Source: Asparagopsis taxiformis
Lineage: Eukaryota; Rhodophyta; Florideophyceae; Bonnemaisoniales; Bonnemaisoniaceae
Assembly (NCBI GenBank): GCA_030407315.1
Contig: JALQPE010002505.1
Span: 1-64,000, forward strand
Reading direction: 5' to 3'
Length of the DNA stretch: 64,000 nt
Under the pieces are notes generated by a model. The model had not been told where the DNA came from, searched no databases, and saw only the letters and a list, made by a program, of their open reading frames with translations. The position numbers and the translations under genes were made by a program. Positions within the stretch are counted from its first letter, which is position 1. The number at the start of each line of letters is the position of its first letter. Shown one piece after another: positions 37,446-59,550 of the stretch.

Positions 37446-40400
37446 ATGACGAATAAGCGCAGGCGCAACAGCAATCCGATCGTTGACGACGCAACCGTGC
37501 CAATTCTGCGCGAACCCGCTAGCCCTTGGGAGGATTCTAGTGACATGGGTACACGTCGAAACGTAGGTCGCGCCGCCCGCGAAACTACTCTCGCTGGCAA
37601 AGACTTCCTCCGCCTCTTGCTGGATTTATTCGCCCACTCAAGTTTCGCAGACTTGACGGACAAGCCGGGAGGTTTCACATACGCGGACCTTGGCGCTTGG
37701 GTTGCGCAGGGCACGGAAGAACAATTTGTGGCGCTGCAAGGTCGACTCAGCATGTCCTTCAGCGGTCGTTCGAAGAATGCTGGAGTCGAGGCGGATGTTG
37801 CCGAAATCGTCATGGCAGAGATGAACGTTGAGCGAGCCAAGCAGATTGTTCGTCTGGCATTACCCATTGCCGAGTTTTCAAGACAGGATGAGCGTATCGG
37901 GCAATGGGTTGAGCACTGCATCCTTTCTGGGATCGTGCCGCAGACCTTCCTTATTGGATGTAACATGCTTCCTTCGCCACTACAGGCGCCGCAGCGCGGG
38001 GAACCAAGCGCCTTCGTTCTTGCTCCACCGGAAACGTTCGAGGTATTGATGTATTTCCAAGCGTTGTCTATCATCCGAAATCACAACAAGAACCTGCCGC
38101 GTCGCCGAATAGGAGATGCGGCCGAAGAGGGGAACGAAGCCGCACGCGTCCCAGCCCATCGGAAAAGCACTAATCGAGCTTGTTACGTGGTTCAAGTTTT
38201 ATACCATGCTTGGACCGATGTGGCCTACGCCGCAAAGTTTTCCAGCTTCGAAGAGTTGATGGCGCCGTACATCATTTTCGACAGCAGTGAGCATTGGTTT
38301 GACGTGCTCGATGAAGGTCTATTCGCACCGATGGAGCAGAAGCTAGATCTCTACCACAACAAAGCTCCCCTATCTCATCCTGATGGATATGGTGGAAAAG
38401 TAGAGACAAGAACCAGTGCGCAGCACAGTGCATTTAGGGACCTTGTGAGGAAGTTCTTCGACCGGTTGCAGTTTCTTATCGTCAACCCGGACCTGTACAC
38501 CTGGCCGGAGTCCGACCGCTGGGGGGCACTGGAAATATACTTCTCAAGCGGAAATCCGGACAAGCTGCCAGCGTATTTTGACACCCTCGACGAAGACGTT
38601 ATGGCTGTCCTCCGCCCGGCACCACAAGCCGCGGACGCAGAAAAGGTCCCCAAGCCGGTTGATGACACTCCCACTCGTCGCAACACAGGAGGGAGAGGTT
38701 TGGTTCCGTCGACAAGACACACAACCAGGCTTCAACTTGGACCTGGGAGGACCAGTCTTACTGCCCAAGGGCCGTCTCCCCCGTCACCGTCACCCCATGC
38801 GACAGAAGAGCAGGAAAGTGAAGGGCAGGCTCTCGCAAAGGACTTTCTTTCGAAAATGAGTCAGTATTGCCGGGTGTACGACGTCCCTTTCGAAGATTTG
38901 GTCAGTGCCGACGAGAGCCGAGAACACGTGCCCATCACGGGCAACGTTCAGCTCATTCTGACTGATCCGCCCTACAATGTTCGTCGTAAGAGGAACGATT
39001 CCAACTCTTCGTACGACAGGCTAACTGCAGAAGATATGCAGGCTAGCATCGAAGTGTTTGACGAGCTGTTGCGCCCCGGTGGCCACGGCATCGTGTTCTG
39101 CTCGGTTTTGCAGTTCTACGAATGGTTCCATTACTTGGAAACGTACAAAGGACCGCAGTCAGAAGGCCCAACCGATACTGCTGCCAGTGATGACGGGTCG
39201 GATGAAGAAGAGGTTACGTCCATGAATTCGGACTCCGAAGCATCGCAGCACAGTGGCGAAGAAAGTGCGGATGAGGAGGAGGACGAGGAGGAGGAGGACG
39301 TCGTTCGGAATTCAGTTTTCTTCGTTGACGAGGTACCTCTGTTGTTTGTCCGACTACCTGGGCACCTCTATCAAATGCCGGGGCGGAAGAGGTACCAACG
39401 CATGAACATGGCAGAGGTCGCTATCCACTTCTGGAAGCGAGGTGTTCCGTTCAAGACCGGAAGCGAGATGGTGGCCTATAGGAACCACGGATACATGGAC
39501 GGCACGTACCCGGCGTGGTGCAACGTCACCATCAATATGCCCGCCATCGATTCGAATGAGATGGTGTGGCGAACAAGGAGCACAACCGGTGCTACGGTCA
39601 GAGTTCGTGCAGAGCAGAAGAGCGTCGCTCTCATGATGGAGTTGATCAGCCAGCATTCACAGCCTGGTGATATTGTTGTCGATCCATTCTCTGGCACTTT
39701 CGCAACGGGAAAAGCAGCTATGAGCTTGCCTGAGCACCGTGTTTTCGTCGGCAGTGACATGGACAAATTGTGTGTGGTACGATCGCTTCCAAAGCTGTGT
39801 GCAGTCATGTCACGTGTAATTCTTTCAAACAACACTGACATGAGGGTCACGACAGAAGCGAAACAGAGTGCTGAGAAGTTCTTGGCGTCCCCCTCTGTCA
39901 CGATGCGTACGCAGAGGGAACGCAGGATCATCGAACCCCCACCTGGCCTTCCCCTGTACCAGAGGTTCCCGAAATATATTCGGCAGTACCTCTGGCAGCT
40001 GTGCCCAGAGTCGATTGCGTCGCGCGAGCACATGGAGAAACCGGTACATTATTGGCCACCTTCCCTGCGCCGCTGGTTGCAAACTGAAAACCCTCGCGTG
40101 ATGCGGGCACACGATTGTGTTGCGAAAAAATTGAGCGTTCGACCATCGCTGATTAAGCATCCAAATGCAGGAAGAGGGCTCTTCGCTGAACAGACATTTA
40201 ATGTTGGTGACGAAGTATGTGCATACTACGGAACTGTTGTGTACTCTGATATGAGCAAGGAGTCGATGAGGTTCGCGTACGGAGAGGGTCACATGGCGAT
40301 AACGAAGGAAACATTCTTGATGTATGCTATCAAGCTGTATGCAACAGCGGAGGACGACGAAAACATCGAGCATCCAATTTGGATTGTTCCGGCTCCGTTC

Positions 40401-40643
40401 TGTTCGGCGCAGTTCATCAACGACCCGCGGTATTTGCGAGGTGAGGACACTCCGGCGGAAGACACCAGGCGGATGGCCAACGTCGAGTTTGTCGAGAACT
40501 ACAGCAGCGGTTCGACGGGGAAGAAGCTCAAGGCGAAGGACCTAGAAAATCCGAAGATCATTGTAGTACGTGCAATCCGCGATATCCGTCCGGGGCAGGA
40601 GCTCTACGTTCATTATGGGACAGCGTTTAGAGCATGGAATTAG
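37446..40643 (+). CDS. DNA amino-methyltransferase fused to SET domain (module copy 1, gene A)
   Basis: The predicted start is the ATG at 37446 (MTNKRRRN), giving 1,065 aa. The frame is open to 37188, but that part is compositionally unlike protein. Residues 1-430: a region also present in the 54.6-53.4 kb copy (YVVQVLYHAW, EELMAPYIIFD) and otherwise unknown to me. Residues 500-790: an amino-methyltransferase with LTDPPYN (D507-P-P-Y510) before DPFSGTFATGKAA (D746) and VGSDMDK. This order of the catalytic motif before the AdoMet motif is the beta-class arrangement of N6-adenine/N4-cytosine methylases, and DPPY more often goes with adenine. An acidic insert (DEEEDEEEED) separates the two. Residues about 905-1060: a SET domain with GRGLFA, CAYYGT, QFINDPRY in the usual NHS region, and ELYVHYGTAF. 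The DPPY tetrad is intact. The SET active site is atypical, so histone methylation is uncertain. Hairpin repeats lie on both sides. Confidence 0.8.
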   Translation: MTNKRRRNSNPIVDDATVPILREPASPWEDSSDMGTRRNVGRAARETTLAGKDFLRLLLDLFAHSSFADLTDKPGGFTYADLGAWVAQGTEEQFVALQGRLSMSFSGRSKNAGVEADVAEIVMAEMNVERAKQIVRLALPIAEFSRQDERIGQWVEHCILSGIVPQTFLIGCNMLPSPLQAPQRGEPSAFVLAPPETFEVLMYFQALSIIRNHNKNLPRRRIGDAAEEGNEAARVPAHRKSTNRACYVVQVLYHAWTDVAYAAKFSSFEELMAPYIIFDSSEHWFDVLDEGLFAPMEQKLDLYHNKAPLSHPDGYGGKVETRTSAQHSAFRDLVRKFFDRLQFLIVNPDLYTWPESDRWGALEIYFSSGNPDKLPAYFDTLDEDVMAVLRPAPQAADAEKVPKPVDDTPTRRNTGGRGLVPSTRHTTRLQLGPGRTSLTAQGPSPPSPSPHATEEQESEGQALAKDFLSKMSQYCRVYDVPFEDLVSADESREHVPITGNVQLILTDPPYNVRRKRNDSNSSYDRLTAEDMQASIEVFDELLRPGGHGIVFCSVLQFYEWFHYLETYKGPQSEGPTDTAASDDGSDEEEVTSMNSDSEASQHSGEESADEEEDEEEEDVVRNSVFFVDEVPLLFVRLPGHLYQMPGRKRYQRMNMAEVAIHFWKRGVPFKTGSEMVAYRNHGYMDGTYPAWCNVTINMPAIDSNEMVWRTRSTTGATVRVRAEQKSVALMMELISQHSQPGDIVVDPFSGTFATGKAAMSLPEHRVFVGSDMDKLCVVRSLPKLCAVMSRVILSNNTDMRVTTEAKQSAEKFLASPSVTMRTQRERRIIEPPPGLPLYQRFPKYIRQYLWQLCPESIASREHMEKPVHYWPPSLRRWLQTENPRVMRAHDCVAKKLSVRPSLIKHPNAGRGLFAEQTFNVGDEVCAYYGTVVYSDMSKESMRFAYGEGHMAITKETFLMYAIKLYATAEDDENIEHPIWIVPAPFCSAQFINDPRYLRGEDTPAEDTRRMANVEFVENYSSGSTGKKLKAKDLENPKIIVVRAIRDIRPGQELYVHYGTAFRAWN

Positions 40644-40867
40644 GGTCACGAAAGATGTTTTCATTTCGACTACAAATAAAGCTACGTTCCAGAGTTGAAG
40701 TATATCATATAATGCAGAATGTCCAGCCACCATTAGTCCAGGGTGAAACCTATTCGGCAGTACTCGCCTGTCAAAAACCAATCGTTCACACTCTAGGTGC
40801 ACTTCGTCCGAGCAGTGAACCTGACTGCTTGGTTGCTGTTATGCGTGCAGATGCAAAATACAAGACC

Positions 40868-41945
40868 AAGTTGAAATGGACGCCCGGTGGATGTCCAGCT
40901 CAGTTGCATTGCTGTCCAGCCCAGAAATTCTACAATTCAGGGCAGAAAAAATATTGCAAAAAACATCGATTTCAGCGGGTCGATTGTGCCGTACGGCACA
41001 CCCCCATCTCAAAAACATGTTCACATGTGCATGTTTTTGAGAATAGCCCAAATTTTAATTCAAATCAGGGTGTCTAATTTGGCCACAACGGCCCCAGGAA
41101 CCGACCGCCGCCCCGAGTGGGGTTGTCACTGGCTTCTGTAAGCACTAACTGTAAGGCTAAATGGCGTCTGACAAAGGGTCAATTTCAGGCTCAATACGCC
41201 AGGGACAGGTCTTGGTCCTTGTTCCATCATGGTCCCACCCCACTCTCTCACGACCAACCTGAAATGCACGTCCGGTGGATGTCCAGCTCGATTGCACTGC
41301 TGGCCAGCCCGGAAATTCTAAAATTTCGGGCACAAAAAAATTGTAAAAAATCAACGATTTCAGCGGGTCGTTTGTGCCGTACGGCACACCCCCATTTCAA
41401 AAACATGTTCACATGTGCATGTTTTTGAGAATAGCCCAAATTTTAATTCAAATCAGGGTGTCTAATTTGGCCACAACGGCCCCAGGAACCGGCCGCCGCC
41501 CCGAGCGGGGTCATCACTGGCTTCTGTAAGCACTAACTGTGAGGCTAAATGGCGCCGGAAGATGGGTCGATTGCAGGCTTCAAGCCTAAGTTATGCTAGG
41601 GAGAAATCTTCTTCCGTGTTTTACTCCCTCAACAGAAACACTACTCACCCATCACGTTACTCATATTCCGTGCACTTTATATTAGTAGTGAACCCGCCTG
41701 CTTAGTTGCTGCAATGCGTGGATGTAGGCAGCACACGACCAACCTGAAATGGACGTCCGGTGGATGTCCATCTCAGATGCACTGCTGGCCAGCCCAGAAA
41801 TTCTAAAATTTCGGGCACAAAAAATCTTGCAAAAATCAACGATTTGGGCGGGTCGATTGTGCCGTACGGCACACCCCCATCTCAAAAACATGTTCACATG
41901 TGCATGTTTTTGAGAATAGCCCAAATTTTAACTCAAATCAGGGTG
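40868..41945 (-). repeat. hairpin repeat R, three copies (minus orientation)
   Basis: Copies begin at about 40868, 41259 and 41738. All are the reverse complement of the 35.3-37.1 kb copies, with the same hairpin, the GTGCCGTACGGCAC palindrome and CAAATCAGGGTGTCTAATTT. They fill the interval between genes A and B. Numerous 60-100 codon frames on either strand come from the repeat. Confidence 0.9.
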
Positions 41946-42290
41946 TTCCCCGGATAAAGGGGTGCTCGCAGCCGCCCCAAAAGCCGCCTAGCTTGACAGC
42001 TGTAATTTTAACACATTACACATCAAGGACACTGCCTGCTTCACGCCACCTCGTCAGGTTTCGAGAGCCCGACTCGGGCCCGTTCTGAACGGACACTCAC
42101 ATCTCGATTGCCTGTCTTGCATTCCAGCGGTCACGATAGGTGTGTACCTAACAAAATTTCGGTTGTATTGTGTTATTATTTCCAGCGATTGGCGTTCACG
42201 ACCATTCTTCAACTTAACGTGAAACATACCATCCACATCACTCGAATACGTCAACGTCAACCATCTCTTTTCCTTTCCAACTCAACAACC

Positions 42291-45200
42291 ATGGCGGATA
42301 CGCATTTCAGCAGTTTGTTTTCAACGGTTTGCGGCGATCAAGTGAGCGCGTCAGCGGAGTCGCGCGGACTCAAGCGCGGCGTCGATGTCGACTTGTTTGC
42401 GGACGTGGACGGTGCGGCTGTGCATATTGGGACGGCTTCGGTGAGCACTGCTGGTGGCGATGTTGGCCTTCCGCGCACGCTGCACAACCACAAGCTGCCG
42501 GAAACCGACGAGGCCGACTATATCGTCGTGCGCAACATTGCGACTAAGGACAAGTTCAAGGACCTCCCGTTCCCGTACATGTTTGATGGCGCCGAGGGAC
42601 CGCCGGAGACGATGGGTGGAGCATACGCCGCGGCGTTTTACCCTTGGGATACTCGGATGATGCGCCCCGCTGCGGAGGATGGCTCTAGCGACATTCGTAC
42701 CCCTGCTGCAGCGTCAAACTTCAAAGCAGCGACGAACCAGGCCAGCTCGGGACGGATGCCCAGTACCGGTCCAGCAGGCGAAATCACTGGTTCGGGGGGT
42801 ACGAAGCATCCAGCACGCTCCGTCCCGGTTTCGGGAGGCACGAAGCGCCCTGCTCGCTCTGCCAGAGCCTCCAGTGGAGGCACGAAGCACCCTGCTCGCT
42901 CCAACGTCACCGAAGCTACTACGCAGGACGTAACCGAGGTGGACGACGAACCGGAGGTGGCGGAAAGCATTCGTGAGCAGCAGGGGACGCAAATTATGGT
43001 GCCCAAGTTTGTGACGTCGGATTACGTCGGAGAAGGAGCGACTGTGTTGGTGAGGCAGCTAGTGGAACCGGCCGTGACCCTTCGCGATGTCAAAGAAGAC
43101 CACGTGGAGGACCTGCGCAACAATATGTTGGCGGTGGGGTATGTGAGCTCTTCGCGTATCACTGTGACGGTGCTGAGGTCGCAGAACACGCATTTGTCCG
43201 CCGACACGCGTCTGTTCCAGAATGGCAAATTCCATGCCAATGCGAACGTGACCGTGATCGACGGACTGCATCGTCTCAATGCTATGCATAGCATTGCGGA
43301 TGACTTCACGCGCCTCACCCGTATGCACAGAACCAAGCTGCCACAGGAGGCAAACCGCTTGCGCTGGGTTACTCAGCCTCTGGATGTGTACTACCTTCGC
43401 CGCAAGGACGACAGTGATCTCCAGCCTCATGAGATCATCCACAAGAGTGCAGAGTCGAACCATACGACTGGGACGCAACTGACGGAGCGCTCCCTGGTTC
43501 GAATCTTGTCGTCCATCCAGCAGTTCATCCGTACGATTGCTGTTGCAAACAACGTGGAAAACGCTGGCGACTTGCGTGAGTCTGATGTCATCCGAACATT
43601 GTTCGAGGCGCAGTTCATGGGGATGATGAATTCGACGAACACGGCTCGGCGGTGGACGCGTTTGGCTATAGCAACGCTGAAGCATCCTGTTCTCGACGAC
43701 GTGTTGCGTGAGCTGAACAATTCCGAGCGCCGCAACGAGATTGGGATAACGCACCTGGACCACAAGATAGTGCGCGAGTTGCTGGAAGAAAACTTTGTCT
43801 TCGTCTTGCGTGGTCTTTCGGAGTACTTGAACCCTGCTCATGGCGGACGTCCGGATGGACGCTTTGACGTGAACGACTTTTATACATACGTCCGTCGCGT
43901 GACTGCAATAGCAAATTCTCTGTACGCTGCGTTTGGGCGCCCAAAGAGTATTATGCGCAAGTCATTTCTGAGCACAGAGATGGCAATTGGGTCGGTTAAG
44001 CAGCCGAAGGAGTTGCAATGGCATCTCACCAATGCCATTGCAATGTATAGAGGGGACGACCGGAGCAGTGAGGTTCGAATGCGACGGAGAACCACGCGTT
44101 TACAGGATTTGGAAACGAACTTGAAAGAGTTTTTCAATCCGACATTGAAGAAGAAGACTAAGGCTCGACGCAAACGCCGCCCTTCTGCTGCCAATGTGAG
44201 ACTCACTCACAAGAAGCAGCGGAATGTCGAACATGAGCCTGCTTCGCATGGCATCCGCCGCCGTTCACAGCGACTTCGCTCGACGGGGAGCACACGCCTC
44301 GAGGAAGAAGAGCCGGTTGTGGTACAACAATCCGCCGGGGAAGAAGAGCAGGCCGTTGTTGATAAACCCACCGATCAACAACAAGCCACTGCTTCCGGTG
44401 ATGAGGTTGACGAAGACTCCGCCCGTTCCCCCGATTCTGCCGTTGAGATTGTCCCCCAAGATAACCAACGTGCTGGTGCGACTCCCTCCAACCAAGAATC
44501 TGTCCATACCGCTTCGGACGAGGAAGACAAACAGGGTGCAGACGAGGGCCAAGTCGAAAGCAAGGGGGTCCGCGAAGTGACAATTACATTCACTGTTCCG
44601 GAAGGAGTGGAAGTCGATGAAGACGGTTACATCGTTCGTGACTCTCCTTCTGAAGACGACCTCCTCTTCGACGACCGTATGCCGTCTCTTCCTGACGATT
44701 TCGAAGACCGAGCCGAAGGGCATCATCTGGCGCAGCGTCCCGCGGATGTCATCGCATCGGTGAGGGTTGGCTGTCTGCCCCCGATTGAGCTCAGGTTGTT
44801 ATTGGAGAGTGTGGAAATCGATGAGGAGGGCAGAGAGGTGAGGTATTTGAAGCAAGTGGCGATGGACCCTGTGTTTGAGGGGCTGCATATTCCGGAAGAA
44901 CATCGGGCTCGTGTGCTATTCGAAATCGATCACGTCTATCCGATGTTCTTCGCAGCGTGGAAGATGGCTGCCAAGGCGATGTGTGAGCCTACATCGACGT
45001 TTCTACCCTCGAGGCTGGACTTTGCCCAGGTTGCGCGAATGTCTACAAGCTGGAAGGATTCGTATGAGGCCGGCACTGGTATGGCGTACTTCCACAATTG
45101 CCGAACGGAAATCAACGAGCGAGGGTATACGGTGATGCACAATTTCGCGGATGTAAGCTACCTCGATGCGTCGGACAAGTTCCCCTTTGACTTGGGTCTC

Positions 45201-46223
45201 ATGGAAGAAATTCCTAACCAGGAATTGTTTCGGTACTTCTTGGGAACATGGGAGGGGGAGCAGGTGCACAAGGACCCTGGGAACCGGCAGCTGTGGAGTC
45301 CCATTGTCAATACAGGGGACGATGAAACAGATGAGAAGAACCGGAATGAGGGGAGGGCTCGCTTCACGTCTACACGCCAGTGCCTGGTTGACTATGCAGA
45401 GAACGACGAGACGCATATCGACCGGTTCAAGTTTGTGACGCGGCGAGCCCTACTGGATGTGTGGTTGGGAATCCTTGTCCGGCTGATAGGGCTGGAGGAG
45501 TGCGGTTTACCGGGAGAAAAACTTGTCATGCCGGCATCTGGGGGACGGTTTTTGATAACGGGAAAGGGGTGTCCTCGGCAGGTCCCACACAATGATTTCC
45601 CTGTTCCTCCTCGCGACCGCAAAGATCAACTTCCGGGTTACTTTGTTATTGCCAACGGAGATGACCCATTCCCTATCTGGGTGTGTCCAGGGTCCCACAA
45701 GTACGTCTTTTCCAAAGCGCTGGAATTAGATATGTACGCCAAGACGATGAAGCTGAAGAAGGTAATCGTTCCGCCACGTTCAGTCTTCATCGGTCACGGC
45801 CATGTACAACATGCCGGGGCAGGGCATGTCGACAGAGTTGTGTCACACACGACAACGAGGTATCACACGTATTTCAGGAATGCGTCGTATCCGATTCCCG
45901 ACAATGTTTCGTTTGGTTTCATCAGGCGGTTGGGATTCGAAGAAGAAGTCATCGCCAATGCTCCGCGCCGGTCTGCAAGGCAAAGTCAACCGGCACCTGT
46001 CAATGTTCGCCACAAGACAGTTGTTCCCATCCCGGTCAAGAAAGATGGTAGGCCGAAGACAGGGCAGCTCCGAATGATGCGGATGAAGACGACAGAACCT
46101 CGCAAGGATGTAATGCACACACCGAGTGTGGCCCCGGTAGTGCCTCTTCTGCCGGGACAACCTGGATATCTAGTTCACTATCATAGTGAGGACGAAGAGG
46201 AAGAACAGTTTTCCGACGGCTAG
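42291..46223 (+). CDS. ParB-like domain fused to 2OG-Fe(II) dioxygenase-type domain (module copy 1, gene B)
   Basis: The ATG at 42291 has a strong context (CAACCATGG) and gives 1,310 aa. Residues about 168-206: three tandem SGGTK(H/R)PARS repeats. Residues about 255-400: a ParB-N/sulfiredoxin-like fold with VTVIDGLHRLNAM (D324, H327, R328) and an upstream RDVKEDHVEDLRNNM helix. Residues 600-900: basic then acidic linkers (KKKTKARRKRRPS). Residues about 1000-1250: a double-stranded beta-helix with QVPHNDF (H1100, D1102), WVCPGSHKYVF, HVQHAGAGH (H1174) and TTRYHTYF (R1190), a complete HxD...H...R set for iron and 2-oxoglutarate. ParB folds bind DNA and/or nucleotides. The dioxygenase could oxidise a modified base, but its substrate is unknown. 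The zinc-finger segment found in copy 2 is not evident here. Confidence 0.75.
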   Translation: MADTHFSSLFSTVCGDQVSASAESRGLKRGVDVDLFADVDGAAVHIGTASVSTAGGDVGLPRTLHNHKLPETDEADYIVVRNIATKDKFKDLPFPYMFDGAEGPPETMGGAYAAAFYPWDTRMMRPAAEDGSSDIRTPAAASNFKAATNQASSGRMPSTGPAGEITGSGGTKHPARSVPVSGGTKRPARSARASSGGTKHPARSNVTEATTQDVTEVDDEPEVAESIREQQGTQIMVPKFVTSDYVGEGATVLVRQLVEPAVTLRDVKEDHVEDLRNNMLAVGYVSSSRITVTVLRSQNTHLSADTRLFQNGKFHANANVTVIDGLHRLNAMHSIADDFTRLTRMHRTKLPQEANRLRWVTQPLDVYYLRRKDDSDLQPHEIIHKSAESNHTTGTQLTERSLVRILSSIQQFIRTIAVANNVENAGDLRESDVIRTLFEAQFMGMMNSTNTARRWTRLAIATLKHPVLDDVLRELNNSERRNEIGITHLDHKIVRELLEENFVFVLRGLSEYLNPAHGGRPDGRFDVNDFYTYVRRVTAIANSLYAAFGRPKSIMRKSFLSTEMAIGSVKQPKELQWHLTNAIAMYRGDDRSSEVRMRRRTTRLQDLETNLKEFFNPTLKKKTKARRKRRPSAANVRLTHKKQRNVEHEPASHGIRRRSQRLRSTGSTRLEEEEPVVVQQSAGEEEQAVVDKPTDQQQATASGDEVDEDSARSPDSAVEIVPQDNQRAGATPSNQESVHTASDEEDKQGADEGQVESKGVREVTITFTVPEGVEVDEDGYIVRDSPSEDDLLFDDRMPSLPDDFEDRAEGHHLAQRPADVIASVRVGCLPPIELRLLLESVEIDEEGREVRYLKQVAMDPVFEGLHIPEEHRARVLFEIDHVYPMFFAAWKMAAKAMCEPTSTFLPSRLDFAQVARMSTSWKDSYEAGTGMAYFHNCRTEINERGYTVMHNFADVSYLDASDKFPFDLGLMEEIPNQELFRYFLGTWEGEQVHKDPGNRQLWSPIVNTGDDETDEKNRNEGRARFTSTRQCLVDYAENDETHIDRFKFVTRRALLDVWLGILVRLIGLEECGLPGEKLVMPASGGRFLITGKGCPRQVPHNDFPVPPRDRKDQLPGYFVIANGDDPFPIWVCPGSHKYVFSKALELDMYAKTMKLKKVIVPPRSVFIGHGHVQHAGAGHVDRVVSHTTTRYHTYFRNASYPIPDNVSFGFIRRLGFEEEVIANAPRRSARQSQPAPVNVRHKTVVPIPVKKDGRPKTGQLRMMRMKTTEPRKDVMHTPSVAPVVPLLPGQPGYLVHYHSEDEEEEQFSDG

Positions 46224-46496
46224 ATATCTTAACAACAACTACTTTAGCAAACAATTATCGAGAATATAATCATCTCCTTTATCACTTTCAATCTATGAAC
46301 CTACTATAATGCACTTCCGTTCCATGCTTTCAAACTAGATTGTCCATTCCCTAGTGGGTTGGAGCATGATTCCAGGACGATTCCCTCACATCTCTAGACT
46401 CGATGGTCTATGCTAGAAATAGCAGAACAATTGGGTTTATACGTGCTTCATCGCCAACTTGCTTCTGGTAATGGCTGGACGTGCACGATACACGAT

Positions 46497-48410
46497 CACC
46501 TGAAATGGACGTCCGGTGGATGTCCAACTCAGATGCATTCCTGGCCGGCCCAGAAATTCTACAATTTCGGGCACAAAAAAATATTGCAAAAAACATCGAT
46601 TTGGGCGGTCGATTGTGCCGTACGGCACACCCCCATCTCAAAAACATGTTCACATGTGCATGTTTTTGAGAATAGCCCAAATTTTAATTCAAATCAGGGT
46701 GTCTAATTTGGCCACAACGGCCCCAGGAACCGGCCGCCGCCCCGAGCGGGGCCATCACTGGCTTCTGTAAGCACTAACTGTAAGCCTAAATCGCGTCTTA
46801 CGAAGGTTCGATTCCAGGCTTGAAGCCTAAGTTATGCTTGGGTGACATCTTTTTCCCTGTTTCATCATGGTCCCGCCTTACTCCCTCCACACAAACACTA
46901 CTCACCTATCACGTTACTCATATTCCGTGTACTTTGTATTAGTAGTGAACCCGCTGGCTTAGTTTCTGCAATGCGTGGATGTAGGCAGCACACGACCAAC
47001 CTGAAATGGACGTCCGGTGGATGTCCAGCTCGATTGCACTGCTGGCCAGCCCAGAAATTCTAAAATTTCGGGCACAAAAAATCTTGCAAAAATCAACGAT
47101 TTGGGCGGTCGATTGTGCCGTACGGCACACCCCCATCTCAAAAACATGTTCACATGTGCATGTTTTTGAGAATAGCCCAAATTTTAATTCAAATCAGGGT
47201 GTCTAATTTGGCCACAACGGCCCCAGGAACCGGCCGCCGCCCCGAGCGGGGCCATCACTGGCTTCTGTAAGCACTAACTGTAAGCCAAAATCGCGTCTTA
47301 CGAAGGGTCAATTTCAGGCTCAATACGCCAGGGACAGGTCTTGGTCCTTGTTCCATCATGGTCCCGCCTCACTCTCTCACGACCAACCTGAAATGGACGT
47401 CCGGTGGATGTCCAGCTCGATTGCACTGCTGGCCAGCCCAGAAATTCTAAAATTTCGGGCACAGAAAAATATTGCAAAAAACATCGATTTGGGCGGTCGA
47501 TTGTGCCGTACGGCACACCCCCATCTCAAAAACATGTTCACATGTGCATGTTTTTGAGAATAGCCCAAATTTTAATTCAAATCAGGGTGTCTAATTTGGC
47601 CACAACGGCCCCAGGAACCGACCGCCGCCCCGAGCGGGGTCATCACTGGCTTCTGTAAGCACTAACTGTGAGGCTAAATGGCGCCGAAAGATGGGTCGAT
47701 TCCAGGCTTCAAGCCTAAGTTATGCTAGGTACGCATCTTCTTCCGTGTTTCATAATGGTCCCGCCTTACTCCCTCAACACAAACACTACTCACCTATCAC
47801 GTTACTCATATTCCGTGTACTTTGTATTAGTAGTGAACCCGCTGGCTTAGTTTCTGCAATGCGTGGATGTAGGCAGCACACGACCAACCTGAAATGGACG
47901 TCCGGTGGATGTCCAGCTCAGATGCACTGCTGGCCAGCCCAGAAATTCTAAAATTTCGGGCACAAAAAAATTGTAAAAAATCAACGATTTGGGCGGTCGA
48001 TTGTGCCGTACGGCACACCCCCATCTCAAAAACATGTTCACATGTGCATGTTTTTGAGAATAGCCCAAATTTTAATTCAAATCAGGGTGTCTAATTTGGC
48101 CACAACGGCCCCAGGAACCGACCGCCGGCCCCGATCGGGGGCTATCACTGGCGTCTGTAAGCACCAACTGTAAGCCGGAGCCGGCTGCCGCCCCGATCGG
48201 GGCTATCACTGGCTTCTATTAGCACCAACTGTAAGCCAAAATCGCGTCTCACGAAGGGTCGATTTCAGGCTCAACACGTCAGGGAAAGGTCTTGGTCCTT
48301 GTTTCATCATGGTCCCGCCCCACCCTCTCGCGACCAACCTGAAATGGACGTCCGGTGGATGTCCAGCTCGATTGCATTGCTGGCCAGCCCAGAAATTCTA
48401 AAATTTCCGA
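46497..48410 (-). repeat. hairpin repeat R array, five copies (minus orientation)
   Basis: Units start at about 46497, 46995, 47388, 47885 and 48338 (the last truncated at about 48405). Two spacer types alternate: one with CAGGGACAGGTCTTGGTCC and one with CACAAACACTACTCACCTAT. Each unit is about 400-490 bases and holds the hairpin, the GTGCCGTACGGCAC palindrome, and a tail with GGCCACAACGGCCCCAGGAA. It forms the right end of module copy 1. Confidence 0.9.
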
Positions 48411-49738: not shown

Positions 49739-49739
49739 T

Positions 49740-50054: not shown

Positions 50055-51042
50055 TAGCTTGAGACTCATCCCCTGTGCCGTAAGCTTTCGAAGTTATCGG
50101 AATTTTTTCAGATGGACACATATCCAATGCAGAAATGTCATTGTCAGGCGAAAGAGAAACTTTAGCCTGCATATCTCGATGGATGAGGAAGAATGCATGT
50201 TTGACTAATTCCATTTCATCTGCTTCCGGGAAGTATTGAAAAAACTGTGTGAGCTGCCGCAGTGCCGAAGTAACGATCGGAATGGACTGTAAGTCCGAAG
50301 GAGAAAGATTAGATACACAAGAAGACGAAGATGAGGAAGAACCAGTACGGCGCTGTTCTCCTTTAGAACCCGAGAGTCGGCGACGTTTCGAATAATTGAT
50401 TGGTAGAGTTGTGGACTGTGCCGCAGGTCGATCTGTTTCCGTTGGCATCGAAATATCCATGGCATGGAAAAGAGCCCGCTGCGAAATCTGCAACCAAGCA
50501 GGCTTATTGGTTGGCACGATGGTTGCATTGCGAAGTGCGTAGTCACGAGAAATGGTATTGCTGTTCAGGTCATCCTCCTCCCCAGGGTCAAGGGTACCAG
50601 AATTCCTCGTCGCCGAATCCTTCCATCGTACAATTCTGTCATTTGCCATAGAAATAAACGCAGTTCCGACAATAGCACGTTTCAGGAACACATGCTTTTT
50701 CCCCACAGCTGTTCCAATTAGGGATTTCTTGGACTGCCTGACCTCAGAATTAGAACTGGATGTCTGAGAGAAGGAAAGGGAAGCCAGAAGCAAAGTAGTG
50801 CAGGAATCTTCATTTGAACACGGTACAGATGTTGCACAGAACGAGTTTGGGGTAACAGAGGTTTTGATGAACTCTGCAATGGTTCGAAACGCGACGAACA
50901 TGGATGTCACAAGTCTGTTGTTGAAAAGAGAGGACACCAGAGTGGTAACTTGTGCTGATTTTCTAGTAAAAAGAGATCTAGACCTGAACATTAGGTAGAT
51001 CAGGTCCTCGTCCTGTTCATGGAAAGAAATGCACCTAATCAT
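50011..51042 (-). CDS. hypothetical protein, 343 aa, beside module copy 2
   Basis: A single minus-strand frame downstream of and on the same strand as the copy-2 methyltransferase-SET gene, with about 120 bases between them. There is a Ser/Lys-rich centre (SKRRRLSGSKGEQRR, possible nuclear signal, then a run of eight serines) and a helical C-terminal part (EADEMELVKHAFFLIHRDMQ). No domain is recognised and no counterpart is seen at copy 1. The end (VFSEMDADVHNL) is encoded by the edge of a dispersed repeat, so the natural C-terminus may have been replaced. Confidence 0.45.
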   Translation of the reverse strand: MIRCISFHEQDEDLIYLMFRSRSLFTRKSAQVTTLVSSLFNNRLVTSMFVAFRTIAEFIKTSVTPNSFCATSVPCSNEDSCTTLLLASLSFSQTSSSNSEVRQSKKSLIGTAVGKKHVFLKRAIVGTAFISMANDRIVRWKDSATRNSGTLDPGEEDDLNSNTISRDYALRNATIVPTNKPAWLQISQRALFHAMDISMPTETDRPAAQSTTLPINYSKRRRLSGSKGEQRRTGSSSSSSSCVSNLSPSDLQSIPIVTSALRQLTQFFQYFPEADEMELVKHAFFLIHRDMQAKVSLSPDNDISALDMCPSEKIPITSKAYGTGDESQATSVFSEMDADVHNL

Positions 51043-51159
51043 CGCGGATGTTAGAGGGAATGAGGAGATAGAACATACTTTGCCTATTTTACTATTTGCG
51101 GGGTAATGGGAAGCAGGGAGAACATGATGTAGGTGTGAAAAACGCCAATGCGTTCCTGT

Positions 51160-54100
51160 TTAAACTGAGAAGTAGTCATTACCATATTCTATGAACAGCT
51201 CAGAGCCAGCAGAGATCGGCACGTTGGCAGTAACACAGACAACTTGATAGTTTGAGACAGTATTCTCGTCGAGGAGCTCTTGAACGGGAGACGAGAAACT
51301 AACGTTAGCTGCGCGTGAAGGACGTTCAGTTCCCTCAGCTGGATCCACAAAGTTGGGTCATTGATTTTCGAAGCGACACAGTACTCGAAAGGGACGACAA
51401 ATATGGGGCTTCCAGCAGTAGAAGGAAGCAAACAAGATATATTCGAATCCTTGATTTGAAGAGCGTAGCTTCTGAAGCGCTCCACGGTAAATGCGGTGGG
51501 ACCTGTTCCAAACGTCTTGCCTTTTGATTTATAGAGATCTCTGTAAACCAATGAACCGAAATAAAATCCAACAATGTCACCAGGGTCGATCTGGTCTCTG
51601 GCAAAAAGACCGTCACCAGCCCCCGAATAGTTGAGGGCGCGACGTACACGTTGTGTGCCATGGCATCAATGGAAAGCAGAAGATTGTTGTCAATGGTGTA
51701 CAGCATGCCGAGAAGTGATTGAGGCCATTTGTGAACTGGAAGGTCGCCCAGTTGTTTGTATTGGTCTGGGATACCCCACATGCTAGTGAGGAAACTGACG
51801 AGGTGGGGCGGAAGTCGCGTAGCAACTGGCAAACCTGAGGTAGGCTTTGAAACCGTACCCTCCTCGGAAACCGGTAGATGTGATGAGGCGAGTTGTTGTA
51901 GCGAAGGATTGGAGAGCTGAGCAAAATTACCAATTGCTACTTGACGCAGAAATGCGGTATGAACTCTCGGAAGAGATAATTCAAAGCAATCTTTGTACTT
52001 TTCACAACCGACAAACCGCCTATACTGACCGTGGCGCATGTTAAGGCAAGCGACTGCAGTGGAGAATGTTCCGGCGAACAAGTCGACAACCAAATCTCCC
52101 TGGTGTGAAAATCGCCCAATTAGTTCCTGCAACAAACCAACGAGCTTCTGCTCCGGGCGCAATACCTTGTTCTTCTGTTCCGTTTGGTCGAAATATTTGA
52201 CAGTCTCTGAAGGCGATATCCTTGGAATGTTGTCGATAATATTTGTCCATGCTCGGAATCTGGTTGGGATGTAACCGGCATTTTTATAGTTCACCATCGC
52301 CCATCCTTTTCTTCCCTTTCCGAGCTTTGTAGCATGTACAACCAGCTCAGACATATTCATTAAACTGGTCGTAAATCTATATGGCGGAGAAGTGAAATGC
52401 GTTGGGCTCCGAATACAGAAGATAGGCTGTGAATCAACTGAAAACATGGGAGTGTTCGTAGAAGTCTTGACCTTTCGGAGTTCGTAAACCCAGTTGTAGA
52501 AAAGGGCAGCAGATGTGAAGATGAGAACATGACCACCCTGTCGTGTTACCTTTGCGATAGTTGCCACTGTGTCCACGATTTCTTGTTGGCGGAGAATGTC
52601 ATACGCTGAATTCTCTCTCCCAGCTGTTCGTCTCGAATTATACGGTGGATCTGTGAGAACCAATTGGGCACCCTCTACAAGCTCCGGTTTTGCAGGAATA
52701 TCAATGCGTTCATAGGTCTCAAGAAGATCTCTGAAACTGCAATTGAGTGTGTGTAGGCAAGAAGCCTTCATGTTTTGTAGGTTTGCTGGAATTGAAACAG
52801 GGTCTCCGAGACGCATAGATTCGATGTCTAAGGACTCGGCAGTACTTGTGTCTGATGGCCTTCTATGAGCGCTCACCGGCTCAGAAGTGCGAGCTGACTT
52901 TGCAGGAACATCAGTTTCATTACTGTTGTCCAGTCGCTTCCGTTTGACACCTGTATCCGTGTTTTGTTCAATGGATGGTGACGCAGGAACGGGAGCGAAA
53001 GATGTATCAGCTTCTCCAAAAAGCTCCTCGTTTGGTTCAGGAGTCGATTGTGGTAGTTCAGAGTTTCTGAAGGCCGTGAGCTGCCTCTCGACGTTTTGAA
53101 GGCCAGGAATAGAAGTGAACCTCCCAGAATCAGTTTCTATAGAATCTTCCTGTGCTTCGAATGCGCAAAGAAACGCGTTTTGTTTCGGAGAAGAAACGGT
53201 CTGGTCAAATAGTTTTCGATCCTTAGTAATATCTGTAATGTGTGCCCAGAAGGAGGAGGCGCAGAGGCGCATCTGAGCGTCTTGGAGGACGGAGCGATGA
53301 ACTGCTCGATGGGATATACTTTTGACATGCTGCAACCTTCGCACGGCCCCTCTGCCATGCAATAACGTCTTTAGCTCTCGAAGAGGAGAGAACCCCTTTC
53401 CTCTGAGTCTAGCACATGGTACTTGAACATGCGCTGATCATAAAGAAGATAAGGTTGGAGAAGTTCCTCGGCCGTTGAAACATCCAGTGCACGAGCCAGT
53501 GTATCCCATGCCTTCACGACCACATGAATAGCGTAGCCGAGGCGCTGAACGGAAGCAGGAGATTCCTTTCTGATCAATACAGTTCGATTAGACGAGGACC
53601 TTGTTCTCGGCCTCACCGGGGTGGCTTTTAAATCTCTTTCCATTTGTAGCATAGCCATGAGAAATATAATCTTCTCGAAAGCGGAAGAAACTCTTGGAGT
53701 AGCCCAGTTTCCATGGTCCGTAGTTCGTAGCTGGGTATGCGCAACAAAGAATTGGCAAGCCAGAGTCTGCCGCACGAATGATTCACGACCAATTGAAGAC
53801 CGAGACGCCGTGTGCACTGAGTGGAAATACTGTGCAACGGGAAGAGGTTCCGAACCTTGGCTGTGGAGGCTTTGGCTGGATGGTAACTTTGTGGTTGTTC
53901 TGTGCTCTTCTACAACGAACACTGGCGTGAAGAGAGACATTGATAAGTCTTGTAAGGAACAACTGGTCAGGAACATATCCCAAACCCTCGTGTCTACGTC
54001 GTTAGACCCCTCATCGCATTCCGAAGACGAGAAAGTGCGGAGGGACTGGACGATATTGAAGGTATGACGATGGTAGGCCTTCCCAAACCAATCTTCCATG

Positions 54101-54654
54101 ACAGCGACTGCCGCAGGCGGAAGCTTTGATTGGAACATGGCCTTGACAGCAGCTCGAAATCCTGGGAGGGTGCGATGTGCAAGGGGAACGTTATCCTCAT
54201 TCCTCTCCCGATCATGCCAGTAGTCACGAAGGTATGCAAGTATGGCAACTGATTCAGTGAAGGGAACCCGTCTTTCTCTCCTGAGGATGTGATAAACAAT
54301 AGAGATCAGTGTGTGTGGCTCTGAAGAGATAGAATCGTAGCTCATGCGTACTAAAAACCGTGAAGTTTTCGTGCGGGGGCGCGACCAGATCTCCTCACAG
54401 ACGTCCATGCCTCCGACAAGGGTGACATCACCATTTTCAGTGATAGATCCGTAAAGATGGAGTGCATCAAAGTCCAGAGACACTCGGGAAGAAATGTCTG
54501 AAGCTGCAGTACCAAAACCTTCAATTGCTGGTATAGAAACAACACGAGCTGGATCTACCCATATGATAGTTCCGTCTCCATACAAGTCTCCTGGATTGGT
54601 GGGGCCACGCTCGCTTGCAGAGATAACAGCCCCATGTTTCATTGTATCAACCAT
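51160..54654 (-). pseudogene. DNA methyltransferase-SET gene, frame-broken (module copy 2, gene A)
   Basis: The minus-strand ATG at 54654 starts a 427-codon frame whose end (AWDTLARALDV, EELLQPYLLYD) parallels residues 240-320 of gene A in copy 1. After a one-base frame change near 53370 the main frame (53362-51335) carries LVLTDPPYNSRR and VVDLFAGTFSTAVA, the same beta-class motif order as copy 1. The SET domain is entered only by another frame change near 51625, at a run of five G: GDGLFARDQIDPGD, GSLVYRDLY, CVASKINDP. A third change near 51345 leads to ELFIEYGNDYFSV. With three breaks it is probably inactive, unless they are introns or sequence errors. It is divergent from copy 1 at most positions and is not a recent duplicate. 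Confidence 0.7.
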
Positions 54655-55953
54655 CGCGCCTTGAATATAGCAATAGAAGAGGAAAAGAAGGCAGAATCCG
54701 AAATGAGGTCGATGCGTCGGTGGCAGCGGAGGTGCTGGTAAGAAAAGGACCGCAAATTTGAAATCGTAATTTGTGCATTCCTCGGAACAATCTGTAAAGT
54801 GCTATGGAGAGGTCGCGAGGACATGCATGTCAGCACCTGACATTACAAGGGTTGTCCATGAAACTATGAGAATCCGAACTGAACGGTTGGAAGTATCGTA
54901 TTAGTGAAATCGGGGTCTACTGCGGAGGACTCTAAGCTGGCTAATACACTGCTTCCACCAGTTCACACCTCATTCACTGTCTATGCAAAATACAATTTTC
55001 GTGGAAGACATCCCACACCCCTTCTAGAACGGTTCTCATGATATTAATACCGGAGCGGATCGATGGAATTGAGCGTGAAGGGGCGCACGTCTCGAATTAT
55101 AGCGCTATAATTCGAGACGTGCCACTTGTGGTAAATTGCGCGCGCAATTTCCCACAAGTGGCAATGGGTGGGACAGCAGCGAACGAACGCGAACAGGCGA
55201 TTTCGGAGATGATAAAATTTGGTAATTTTTGGGCTCCAAAAATTACTCGATTAAAAACTGATCTAGTCTTTGTCGGGAGCTAGATCAGTTTTTACTCGAG
55301 TAATTTTTGGAGCCCGAAAAATTACCAAATTTTATCATCTACGGAAAAGGCGCTGTGGAGGTGTTCTGGTCGTTGGTAGCAGTGCGAAGGCACACCTGAG
55401 AACCGTTATATCTAACGAGAACAAAAAGATACTGACACTTCAGCACTGCGCGGGAAAGGTAGGTGGGAGAAATAAAAGGTTGTGAGGCTCAATAAACGGT
55501 TCGTGTAGCTGCATCCGGCACATGTCTGAAGAACATTGACTAACTGGAACAAGTCATGAATGGTTCAGGACTACTTCCGTTGTATTAATACTTGCTGAGA
55601 TAGAGTCAGTTTCCATTTCTTCTTTTCTTATTGATAATATACGAGTCATGAAAGGTGTATGTAGTTCGGTAACTTTTCGAGATTGCAAAATTACTGAAAT
55701 TAACATTTTTATTCGAGCTGGCGCTATGACCGTTTATTCGATTCAGGTTGGACCATGCGCCAATAGAAACCGCTCGCGCGGTCTGAATTTTTACGCACAG
55801 TTTTGGTGTCCTTCCAGTTGAAAAAATTTGTTGTTAATACATTGTCCCTCGCTGACTAGCTGATTAGTACTCCCCTGCTACTTGGAAGGCATACCGCGTT
55901 ACTCTGGTACCGTTTCAATCGTCAGCTATTCGACCCTCCTTGCGATCCCAACC
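54655..55953. promoter_or_regulatory. divergent intergenic region of module copy 2 with palindromes and fold-back element
   Basis: A 1.3 kb region between genes A (minus) and B (plus) of copy 2, so it should hold both promoters. It contains adjacent palindromes at 55085-55122 (perfect, 38 bp, centre AGCGCT) and 55121-55162 (42 bp, one mismatched pair, centre GCGCGC), then the fold-back element at 55206-55342. No clear TATA box is assigned. Confidence 0.4.
55206..55400 (-). mobile_element. fold-back MITE-like element with unique arm, left copy
   Basis: 55206-55342 is a long inverted repeat: GATGATAAAATTTGG...ACTGATCTAG on the left and its near-perfect complement on the right, around a short loop CTTTGTCGGGAG. 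It is followed by an arm (55343-55400; GGCGCTGTGGAGGTGTTCTG, GGCACACCTGAG) that reappears in reverse at 59876-59940 and 60200-60262. The left and right copies thus face each other across gene B. Confidence 0.85.
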
Positions 55954-58900
55954 ATGAGCCTACGTCCCCGCCGAGGGGAAGCTTCTTCCAGCGCACGTCA
56001 ACTAGCCATTCCTGCGATATCACGCTCCGTTGCTTCTTCGTTGTCGAATTACGTTTTCAAGATGATCAAGTTGCCTATTCTGGACATATACGTCCCCGAT
56101 GAAACATCCCGGGAAGTTGACGACTCTCATGTTGACTTGTTGTTCCGCAAGATGGTTATGGAAGGCTTCCAGACCTCTGCGGTGGGATGTATCACTGTTG
56201 TTTCCTTACCCTACCAATCCAGTGGAAGCCGCTATTACATCGTGGACGGACTCCATCGTCGCCGTGCTCTTTTACGATGCAAAGAAAAAGGGGTGGAACG
56301 TTTGGCGTCTGTGGTTGACAATGTCCCAGTACAAGAAGCTCAAAGACCTGACGGAGAAAAGATGACAATGGAGGACATGCTGTACCTCAGTCAGCGTTTG
56401 AATGAACTCGTCCACACGGTGTTACCGACCACAGTTCGAGATCGTATCCACGCGATCATTAGCATTTATAACTGCAATGTTAAATATGCCCGACCCGGTG
56501 AAAGAACTGTCGCTGATATGCCTGCATCACAGGTTGCGAACTGGTTCTTCCAGCGCCACTTCAGCGGTATTCTGAAGAAGAGCACGGTATCTTCTATAGT
56601 GAATGTGGCGTTGAACATGAGGCGTTCACCCCCGCACATACGCTGCGTACAAGGCTTCCTCAGGAAGAAAGGAAAACGAAGTTGGAATCAGTCTTTTAAT
56701 TCTCAAGGACACTGCTTTTACAAGGGCGGAGGATCGTGCCAGTGAGCTAATGGTCAAGTGCATTCACTACCGCAATGTCCAACTGCTTCCCACCTTCGGT
56801 CGTGTCCCGTCTTTCGACCTTCGGACGTACTTGACCTACATACAACAATATTACGAAGTCATTCGTGAGATGGCACGTGCCAGTAACCTGTCGACCGAAG
56901 ACATCGCTGACCTCGAAGACTTGGAATCAGACGGAACGGATATGATACCAACGTGGAAATCCGTCTACAAACGTATGATTCAATACGAGGAAGAGCCCGT
57001 GCCGAGGAAACCCGAAAACCAGGAGGCACGGCTGGAGAGTTTTCGATCCGTTCTTCGAGACCGCTTTGGAATTCAGTCCACTCGCCAGGTTTCATCCGAA
57101 TCACACGGCCCGGATGAAGAAGAAGACGGCAATGGAGAAAACAAGGGGTTCAAGACAAGCGCCAAGGTGGCGAGCCAGTCACTCAAGCTATTATGCAAGC
57201 TTCGCAGTCGACTGGTGCTGCTCAACCAGCGACGAAGACTACGGGTGCTTCGAGACATGAACGTCGTTTAACCCAATTCGAAGACGTTATCATGGAACCT
57301 CTCCCAATCCCCATCTCTTCTGATGACGTCGTTATCGACGAGACCGTCGAGGAACTACCGTCCACTCCCGCATCAAAACAGGTGATACCCGAAACCAGCG
57401 CTGGGTCGGATGACGACATGGAGATTTCCAAGGATGCACCTGAGGAGGATGCACCTGAAAAGGATGCAGATTCTCCACATCCCGAGCAACTGGGCTCCGA
57501 GGACGAGAACCGTTCTGAACCACCCGACGCGCATTCCACTCCCTCTTCACGGAATGAAATTGGTGCGGATGGTGCGGAAGATGGCACAGAAGTTCAGAAA
57601 GCTCCGGATTCAGCGTCGAAGGGAGCAAGTAAGACTGTATCTAACATCACAGTCAGCCGCATACCGCGTGACAGTACTACTCCACGCCCGTTTCCATGCT
57701 CTTTGGGAGATTACTGCGCTTTTCCTGGAAGTGCCGCTGTTCATAAATGCACCGCTTGCGGAATTAATCCGGTTCACAATCTATGTGACTATGCGCGAGT
57801 GCATCATCTCATCCCAAGGAAGTACCTCGCTGCAGGGGAGCGTGATATGGTCTTCGTTTGTTCCAGGAAATGTTACGATGGTGGGAAAGATGGTGACCCA
57901 CCATCTTGGAAGCCGCCAGCGGGAGTAACGGAACAGGAAGCCTGGGAAGGGGATGACTTCAACCCATATGCGAAGGCCAGTTCCAGTACTGATTCGGTGG
58001 AAAAACCTCAGCAGCCCTCTGAACCCGCTCCTCAACAGACGGGGGCGAAGAGGAAATTTCCTTCTTCTCCAGGAGCTCCACCCGCGAAGCGGCGAGCTAT
58101 ATCATCCCCCCAATCTCTCTCTTTCCCTTCCCGTCTTACTCGTTCAAAGGCTAGATCTGCTGCTATTGCTGAGCACATCGCGTCACTTGATTCCCCATCT
58201 ACTCCTTCGGTTACTCCTCGGTCTGCCTCTGGAACAAAGAAGACGAAGAAAGCAGCAATTGCTTTAAAGCAAGTCAAGCAAGGTAATGATGAGGGAGGAA
58301 GCATGGACGGCAATGAAGACTCCGGAGAAGAAAAAGAAGACGAGGATCAAATCACTCCTACGAGGTTGCAATCCAAAGGTTTCAAAGTACATCGGTACGA
58401 GGATCAGCAACCTGAGCCCCCATCATTTTTCACCAGTCATACTTCTGTAGAGGAGGCTGCTTCAATGGTGCGTTCCATTTCCAGTTTGCTGCATCCGGAA
58501 CACCGCTCGGGATTTCATGTAACGGAGGGTGAGGTGGAAGAGTTTCAGCAGGATATAGAGTCCGTGGCAGGGGATACAAGTTCTTCAAGATTGGTTTACT
58601 TCGAGCGTGCCAGGGCCCGATTGGACTCTCTTGGTTATGTCGTCCTTGACGGCATCCTACAACCATCCGAGCTCAGCTCTACTATCCACAAACTCCTCGA
58701 CTCGTTTTGTAACATGTTCGTAGATGGGCAGGATGGTGCTTGGGGGCCCATTCTGAATTCGGGTTCTTCCGACCAGGATGCGCGTGGTGGCCCGGATGAA
58801 CAAAGGTTCATGACCCCATGCAAGGCTGTAGTGGAAGATCTGGAAAAGGATTCTACTTCCACTCTCGCGAGAGACAAGGCGGCCTTGGATGTTTTCTTTG

Positions 58901-59550
58901 CTATCATAGCAGAAAAGTTGCATCTAGAGGATTCAACTCCGTCTCTGGACGGATTTGAAAAAGGCCCGAAGCTCCAGTTCGGGAAGACAGGGCTCAGGTT
59001 GCTTCTAACTGGATCTCGTTGCGAGCGCCAAGTCCCACATCTCGACTTCGTCTACCCTGGTCCTCCGTTAGAAGACGAAAACCGCTTCAACGGGACTCCT
59101 ATTCCATTTCCGGATTATTCATTCATCGCTACTGGTGCAATGGGCACTCCGCTTATTGTACGGCCGCGAAGCCATGCATTCCTTAACGCTCCCCATCGAT
59201 CTGCAGCGGCCATATTTCCCCTTCTCAAGCCAGAATTGGTATGGATCCCACCGTATTCTGTTATAGTATGTCGTGGGGACCTCGAGCACAGCGGCCCGGG
59301 ATGGAAAGATCACGAGCTGATGAAAACCAAGCTTGGGAAGAAATACAAGATGGTTTATCCTCATCATATTAGGGCCCACACCATGGCAATTCGGGAAACA
59401 TCGGTCTTAGTCAACGATCTAGTCTATGCACCGTTGAAGGACTCGCGTCCGGTCGCAAGGCCAGATATGTACGAGTTACCCCACGACGTCGAGAGTGATA
59501 CCAGCTCTTCTTCAGCTGGCAGTTCTGGGGAGGATTACATGGAAGTCTAG
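55954..59550 (+). pseudogene. ParB-like / zinc-finger / dioxygenase gene, frame-broken (module copy 2, gene B)
   Basis: The ATG at 55954 (CAACCATGAG) parallels copy 1. First frame to 56745: a ParB-like segment with YYIVDGLHRRRALL, then helices aligning with copy 1. A frame change near 56640-56690 leads to the second frame (ending 57271), whose KENEVGISLLILKD matches RRNEIGITHLDHK of copy 1. Another change near 57150-57200 enters the last frame (to 59550). That frame has Ser/Glu-rich linkers, a Cys/His cluster (HKCTACGINPVHNLCDYARV, then VCSRKCYDGG) resembling a zinc finger, and a dioxygenase core with QVPHLDF, VRPRSHAFL, LEHSGPGW and HHIRAHTM. All iron-binding residues (HxD...H) are kept. Two frame breaks make it probably inactive as one protein. 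Short introns are an alternative, and the intact last frame could still be expressed alone. Confidence 0.65.

Follow-up and report, generated by a model that had tools for sequence, protein, structure and literature searches.

Introduction

In fungi, DNA transposons of many lineages, Plavaka and EnSpm among them, carry genes coding for TET/JBP oxygenases; in the accessible part of the account by Kojima (2025, PMC12730594) these enzymes are argued to act in anti-silencing, and their gene passes from one transposon lineage to another. These transposons are the closest published cases to the system described here, a pair of genes, designated A and B, which occurs twice in a stretch of 64,000 nucleotides from the red alga Asparagopsis taxiformis (assembly GCA_030407315.1, contig JALQPE010002505.1, positions 1 to 64,000). 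This stretch, hereafter the window, is contig C2378 of an assembly of 141.5 Mb and 3156 contigs. By its sequence, A would be a DNA methyltransferase fused to a SET domain, and B combines a probable ParB-like domain with a predicted dioxygenase. The common features with the fungal elements, as far as the accessible text describes them, are a 2-oxoglutarate (2OG) oxygenase, thought there to counter silencing, and its presence on several transposon lineages. The algal oxygenase differs in its phytanoyl-type fold, its ParB-like domain and its pairing with a methyltransferase-SET protein, and the terms ParB and red alga are absent from the main text of PMC12730594.

Two further systems deserve comparison. 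HarbingerS and MuDR transposons of Phytophthora carry a gene for a SET lysine methyltransferase (cited via PMC12730594), and thus resemble our case in having a SET gene on a DNA transposon, but neither a fused methyltransferase nor a ParB-oxygenase partner is mentioned in the accessible part of that source. Plavaka-flanked giant repeats occur in Amoebidium; many of their genes code for tyrosine recombinases, and the accessible text mentions neither methyltransferase-SET nor ParB-oxygenase proteins (PMC11244446). Our searches of the open-licence PMC literature found no description of the A/B composition, which appears to be new. To our knowledge, the way in which large DNA transposons of algae evade silencing is an open question. 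It becomes directly testable in a single genome that harbours two young families of high copy number, alike in their enzyme pair and unlike in their transposases.

Results

Carriers of the two gene pairs

It is close to certain that both A/B pairs are mobile cargo of recently amplified DNA transposons, a fact missed in the initial annotation of the window, which had described the genes as a two-gene module. The first pair (A1, B1) lies in element 1 and the second (A2, B2) in element 2, and the two multi-copy elements have different ends and different transposases (Table 1).

Table 1. Features of elements 1, 2 and 3 in the window
Feature	Position	Strand	Description
Element 1	26814..50055	+	Whole DNA transposon, 23,242 bp; ends from comparison with five other contigs
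Element 1, left terminal inverted repeat	26814..26847	+	CGTCTGTGTT...GACGTCCA; 32 of 34 nt shared with the right end
T1	29649..32687	+	Plavaka transposase, 1012 aa; Pfam PF18759, 1.6e-24, 87.2 bits (cut-off 26.3)
Open frame of element 1	32765..34648	-	Weak Pfam hits below cut-off only
Repeat cluster 1	35252..37110	-	Upstream of A1; three units with palindromes GTGCCGTACGGCAC and AAACATG(N10)CATGTTT
A1	37446..40643	+	Single open frame, 1065 aa; methyltransferase ~38946-39767, SET ~40170-40619
Repeat cluster 2	40748..42041	+	Between A1 and B1; three units
B1	42291..46223	+	Single open frame, 1310 aa; probable ParB-like domain ~43008-43475, predicted phytanoyl-type 2OG dioxygenase ~44940-45911
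Repeat cluster 3	46490..48407	+	Downstream of B1; four units
Element 1, right terminal inverted repeat	50022..50055	-	Pairs with the left end
Element 2, right-hand part	50056..63856	+	Copy with full ends in C2057
Left-arm gene of element 2	50056..51042	-	Truncated at the edge of element 1
A2	51160..54654	-	Methyltransferase ~51977-52666; SET in pieces
Palindromic repeats of element 2	55191..55400	.	GTAATTTTT...AAAAATTAC; between divergent A2 and B2
B2	55882..59550	+	DGLHR ParB-like motif in first frame; dioxygenase 58591-59328
Palindromic repeats of element 2	59876..60437	.	Same repeats, downstream of B2
T2	60643..63856	+	Putative second transposase, interrupted by element 3; motifs by eye
Element 3, left end	63857..64000	+	CACAGGATAAGC...; runs past the window edge, carries an A gene

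The five contigs compared to delimit element 1 do not all span both of its ends; position 26814 is reached by four of them and 50055 by two. Beyond these positions the shared block ends and the flanks are unrelated, and the same termini stand beside unrelated flanks at further loci too. Of the four copies that could be read at both ends, three have a 2-bp target duplication: the flanking dinucleotides are TA/TA in C436 and C503, TT/TT in C294 and TT/TA in the window. TA, often as part of GTA, precedes 13 of the 28 element 1 ends that were read, which indicates a target preference. Eight of these ends come from the first contig comparison and 20 from 34 fetched stretches (14 and 20), the remainder of which missed the end; the right end in C632, cut by the end of the contig, was omitted from the count.

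A search of the own genome with the A1 protein gave 4133 first-look candidates, and each of the 43 places scored was full length, 100% identical and devoid of internal stops, which sets the copy count at 43 or more. Exact right ends of element 1 amount to at least 40 (574 first-look candidates), and the 40 matches listed all lie on contigs C10-C294 of the 3156. If the order of contigs is arbitrary, such confinement makes a few hundred copies of element 1 likely, a number extrapolated beyond the scored matches. All 40 scored copies of T1 were identical (100%) over 901 bp. The order of the genes was assessed among the matches listed and only on contigs common to both lists of matches (about 40 places each), as contigs present in one list are uninformative. 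B1 lies downstream of A1 on the same strand on all seven common contigs, with a gap of 3.7-4.5 kb, and T1 and A1 share the strand, 6.2-6.5 kb apart, on 12 of 13; on the remaining one, C632, the two places are 58 kb apart on opposite strands. A shorter version of element 1, of about 13.3 kb and with the same ends, occupies C294 (14166-27429). The odd termini at two other loci (L044 and L032, on C426 and C444) may belong to rearranged or nested copies.

The transposase domain of T1 and the target duplications are those expected of Plavaka (2-3 bp); in the accessible part of PMC12730594, duplications of 2 bp are given for PlavakaA and are among those of PlavakaB. The same source places Plavaka outside KDZ, and membership in KDZ was rejected for T1 on the grounds of its Pfam match. 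The published ends are TGT...ACA or CATCA...TGATG (PMC12730594). Element 1, with the ends CGTCTG...CAGACG and a size of about 23 kb, fits neither PlavakaA nor PlavakaB, and it is a Plavaka-related element that we do not file under either of them.

A copy of element 2 with both ends was found in C2057 (46102-67005; 20,904 bp; ends CACAGCATAAGC...GCTTATGCTGTG), where the two outer parts were read and the middle is covered by matches to A2, B2 and T2. Its termini, CACAGC...GCTGTG in C2057 and C2132, show the CA...TG that characterizes CACTA-like (CMCT) transposons, and a possible 2-bp target duplication, against 2-5 bp expected of that class, accompanies one of the two copies. No Pfam match above cut-off was obtained for T2, in which transposase motifs were recognized by eye only; T1, in turn, matched nothing in that part of the window which belongs to element 2. 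DNA searches of the own genome indicate at least 40 copies of element 2 that are 99-100% identical: the 40 scored copies of each gene were at 100% (rounded) over 901 bp for A2, at 99-100% over 901 bp for B2 and at 99-100% for T2 (195, 60 and 200 first-look candidates, respectively). A2 and B2 are divergent on all 29 common contigs, with a gap of 5.7-6.5 kb on 28. The gap in C2392 is 22 kb, compared with about 6 kb elsewhere, and perhaps another element was inserted there. B2 and T2 share the strand on all 32 common contigs, 1.7-2.6 kb apart on 31 of them and 8.4 kb apart in C2605. Adjacency of A and B is thus conserved within this genome for both elements, in agreement with what had been predicted from the window.

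In the window, element 1 adjoins element 2 at 50056, within the left-arm gene of the latter. Although the right flank of element 1 continues element 2, its left flank (26750-26813) has no match to the element 2 copy tested, which means that the left junction is either recombinant between copies or misassembled. Element 3 is inserted in T2 and its DNA is about 77-88% alike to that of element 2. The A gene of element 3 (L062, L066) is flipped relative to its arm, and its product aligns with A2 over 227 aa at 49% identity.

Gene A

A1 had been described as a methyltransferase joined to a SET domain in one frame, and Pfam bears this out, with N6_N4_Mtase at 3.4e-15 and SET at 1e-6 (29.5 bits against 22.4), both beyond the curated cut-offs. 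In A2 the methyltransferase is likewise recognized (N6_N4_Mtase, 5.4e-13); its SET domain gives no Pfam match and is visible only as pieces over several frames. A profile search of solved structures with the methylase part of A retrieved DpnA as the closest, together with CcrM, RsrI and MboIIA, and the SET part matched solved histone methyltransferases of the KMT2 (MLL) and EZH2 type. The DPPY motif stands ahead of the FxG motif, as in the beta class of N6/N4 methyltransferases. Judged by these motifs and profiles, A is a beta-class DNA methyltransferase fused to SET, with adenine-specific enzymes as its nearest relatives, and its family makes adenine N6 the most probable target. A shares with DpnA, CcrM, RsrI and MboIIA the TDPPY ahead of VVDxFxGT; unlike them, it is fused to SET and to a long N-terminal part, and resides on a eukaryotic transposon.

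Residues 460-1065 of A1 have 38 metagenomic relatives, one at 99%; the methylase domain is present in all 38 and SET in 21. An alignment of 22 A sequences (20 of these relatives, A1 and the principal frame of A2) shows little or no variation in the TDPP part and in the FxGT motif that follows it. One relative, P0034, is labelled as a Bacteroidota metagenome-assembled genome, and perhaps represents stray eukaryotic DNA in that assembly. A viral origin of A was considered and rejected, as the A1 search of viral contigs gave no match. At least 600 stretches were matched by the profile of the A family, and among them 17 loci encode relatives that span no more than 274 query residues; a profile search of genome contigs returned 47 stretches, none of them confirmed.

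Gene B

The proposal that B1 joins a ParB-like domain to a dioxygenase holds for the oxygenase on fold evidence and has moderate support for the ParB-like domain. The oxygenase part is modelled as a double-stranded beta-helix with an intact HxD...H...R site, and B2 has the same invariant residues as B1. Fold comparison points to the phytanoyl-dioxygenase type, an assignment that we regard as well supported by the model, with B1 giving no Pfam match and no dioxygenase family in Pfam matching any of nine B members at E values up to 5. From the fungal precedent we expected a TET/JBP enzyme; the fold matches listed point to phytanoyl-type enzymes instead, which makes that membership less probable. 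No TET/JBP protein was among these matches and none was found in Pfam, the absence from the list by itself excluding nothing.

The second domain bears a DGxHR motif, in the form DGLHR in B2. Comparison of B with viral models gave ParB/Spo0J as the two top matches (E 4.6e-4), and 12 of the best 50 rows were named ParB. Eight relatives of B, obtained with a narrow query, all keep both motifs; a broad piece of B used as the query found no homologue among 7992 candidates scored, the B profile had no match among PDB sequences, and a further profile search gave 66 stretches with none confirmed. On the basis of the phage ParB fold matches and the DGxHR motif, the domain is probably ParB-like. What B has in common with DndB and other ParB-like DGxHR proteins is the motif, the phage ParB fold matches and DndB matches below threshold; it differs from them in the fusion to a dioxygenase, and Pfam scans of the larger open reading frames (ORFs) recognized no partition or phosphorothioate genes.

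Relation of the two pairs

The low identity noted between the copies was confirmed: A1 and A2 are 29% identical over 444 aa (E 5.6e-58), B1 and B2 26% over 272 aa (E 8.3e-20), both far beyond chance. Such values, together with the different ends and transposases, rule out a recent segmental duplication, one of the conditions under which the idea of a conserved module was to be abandoned. A single-copy cassette of the host is ruled out by the copy number and the transposon ends. The presence of the same pair on elements that differ in ends and transposases implies that the pair moved between transposon lineages, or that the transposase was replaced. Copies within one element family are not mutually independent, and the independent evidence therefore amounts to two element lineages; from these two, A and B are likely to form a conserved functional pair. 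The suggested partnership is thereby upheld as far as this genome shows, with adjacency kept at 26-29% identity, and modified in that both pairs are transposon cargo. As for the second copy, its divergent order, the N6_N4_Mtase domain, the DGLHR motif and the oxygenase residues agree with the first description, but in the window both genes are spread over several reading frames. One relative of A (P0025) and one of B (P0041) have the same longest-contig value, 15726, and perhaps come from one metagenome contig, which would then add to the independent evidence.

Discussion

The domains found agree with the suggested combination of a writer of DNA marks, a SET domain and an oxidase. The best mechanism that we can propose for the pair would be anti-silencing or self-marking: most likely, A and B rewrite marks on transposon DNA, so that the element escapes silencing or its transposition is tuned. 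A would methylate DNA, probably at adenine N6, and its SET part histone or other lysines. The ParB-like domain would guide B to element DNA, possibly at the palindromic repeats flanking the genes, where the oxygenase could oxidize bases, methyl groups or chromatin proteins. Jointly, the two proteins would exchange host silencing marks for marks that keep the element transcribed or competent for transposition. We assign a probability of roughly 55% to the proposal that A and B form such a transposon-borne epigenetic toolkit, replacing host silencing marks on element DNA. If A writes N6-methyladenine (6mA), adenine methylation in a eukaryote would here have a mobile source, with DNA and lysine methyltransferases in one chain, and if B is guided by its ParB-like domain, a eukaryote would use a DNA-binding fold of bacterial type to aim an oxygenase.

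Several observations weigh against this proposal. The listed solved relatives of the B oxygenase bear names of small molecules and not of DNA. The leading two ParB fold matches have rmsd values of 13 and 17 over the two-domain model, given without an aligned range, and no ParB entry is present among the PDB fold matches listed for B. Pfam offered for B only DndB below threshold (three of nine members, best 0.016), PHROGs gave weak matches in single members and PADLOC none. In the window, A2 and B2 are broken over several reading frames, and introns, indels or assembly errors may account for the breaks. A terminus of the right-end type stands at the left side in C426 (near 27119) and in C444 (near 14908), so some copies of element 1 appear rearranged. 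The GTAC core of the palindromes resembles the insertion preference of element 1, and hence they may serve the transposase.

The last point concerns the repeats themselves. Each of the ten units of element 1 contains the perfect palindrome GTGCCGTACGGCAC and AAACATG(N10)CATGTTT within an almost invariant core, with varying flanking parts. The palindrome of element 2, present in five copies in all, is different. These sequences may belong to promoters, or they may be sites bound by B or by the transposase. One can envisage that A and B belong to the transposition machinery, methylation and ParB-like binding marking the ends or repeats and thereby limiting the transposase to the right copies or to the period after replication. 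Palindromes with a GTAC core inside an element that prefers TA, often GTA, would suit such a role, as would the spacing and strand kept between A1 and B1 and between A1 and T1. The repeat clusters, however, surround A and B rather than the element ends, and the palindrome of element 2 is quite different; we consider this explanation rather unlikely. A more ambitious form of the epigenetic toolkit seems doubtful to us as well: both lineages would carry a full self-directed marking system. In it, A would write marks on DNA and on histones jointly, and the oxygenase, guided by ParB and spreading from palindromic nucleation arrays, would edit marks on element DNA only, so that the transposon would encode its own counterpart of a system for chromatin identity.

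Transposons capture genes, as exemplified by the SET genes of the oomycete HarbingerS and MuDR elements (PMC12730594, accessible part), and A and B could be ordinary passengers caught by chance, devoid of joint function. We find this improbable in view of the same two architectures in two elements with different transposases, their catalytic residues kept at such low identity, and of the joint retention of methylase and SET in 21 of 38 metagenomic A relatives and of both motifs in eight of eight B relatives.

A separate problem is the depletion of GATC. DpnA, the closest solved relative of the A methylase, methylates GATC, and no other of the 256 tetranucleotides is as under-represented as this word in element 1 (40 against 78.6 expected); in the coding part it occurs 24 times against 46.6, and none of 1000 synonymous shuffles was as low. 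One might therefore suppose that A is directed at DNA outside its element, in host genes or in competing elements, and that the element carrying it avoids the sequence targeted. The depletion extends to element 3 (10 against 17.6; 10 of 1000 shuffles as low), but is weak in element 2 (47 against 56.6; 41 of 1000 as low, in a set with about 470 bases counted twice). The flank frames had 11 against 12.3 (391 of 1000 as low), and other host DNA is mildly depleted too (164 against 192). TGCA deviates comparably, by +4.0 s.d. in the same test as GATC in element 2, and GATC was chosen after inspection of all 16 palindromes. As other words also deviate, we treat the depletion as a lead only and target avoidance as very improbable. 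Least probable of all is that the ParB-like domain serves to segregate or maintain an excised, extrachromosomal form of the element, for which the repeat clusters would act like centromeres. ParB-type fold matches and clustered perfect palindromes would accord with this, but the copies observed are inserted, and in Pfam scans, which were not exhaustive, the larger ORFs of the elements revealed no ParA-like or replication gene.

Host genome and neighbouring features

The assembly contains one gene for the RuBisCO large subunit, whose closest solved relative is 8bdb, followed by 1bwv, both of them presumably red-algal proteins, and this points to a red-type plastid. Of 13 matches to phycobilisome genes, 11 are on C469, the contig that also holds the RuBisCO large-subunit gene. 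Both findings support a red-algal host. To the left of element 1, an open frame at 21107-23023 of the window contains an NB-ARC domain (2.3e-22). The region 23645-26581 consists of a frame with a zinc knuckle just below the cut-off and then a frame that matches Tudor and integrase-SH3-like domains weakly, and is perhaps a retrotransposon remnant. Arrays of a repeat of about 118 nt, with AAAATAATACC(C/G)GGTAT in common, occupy positions 2817-12764.

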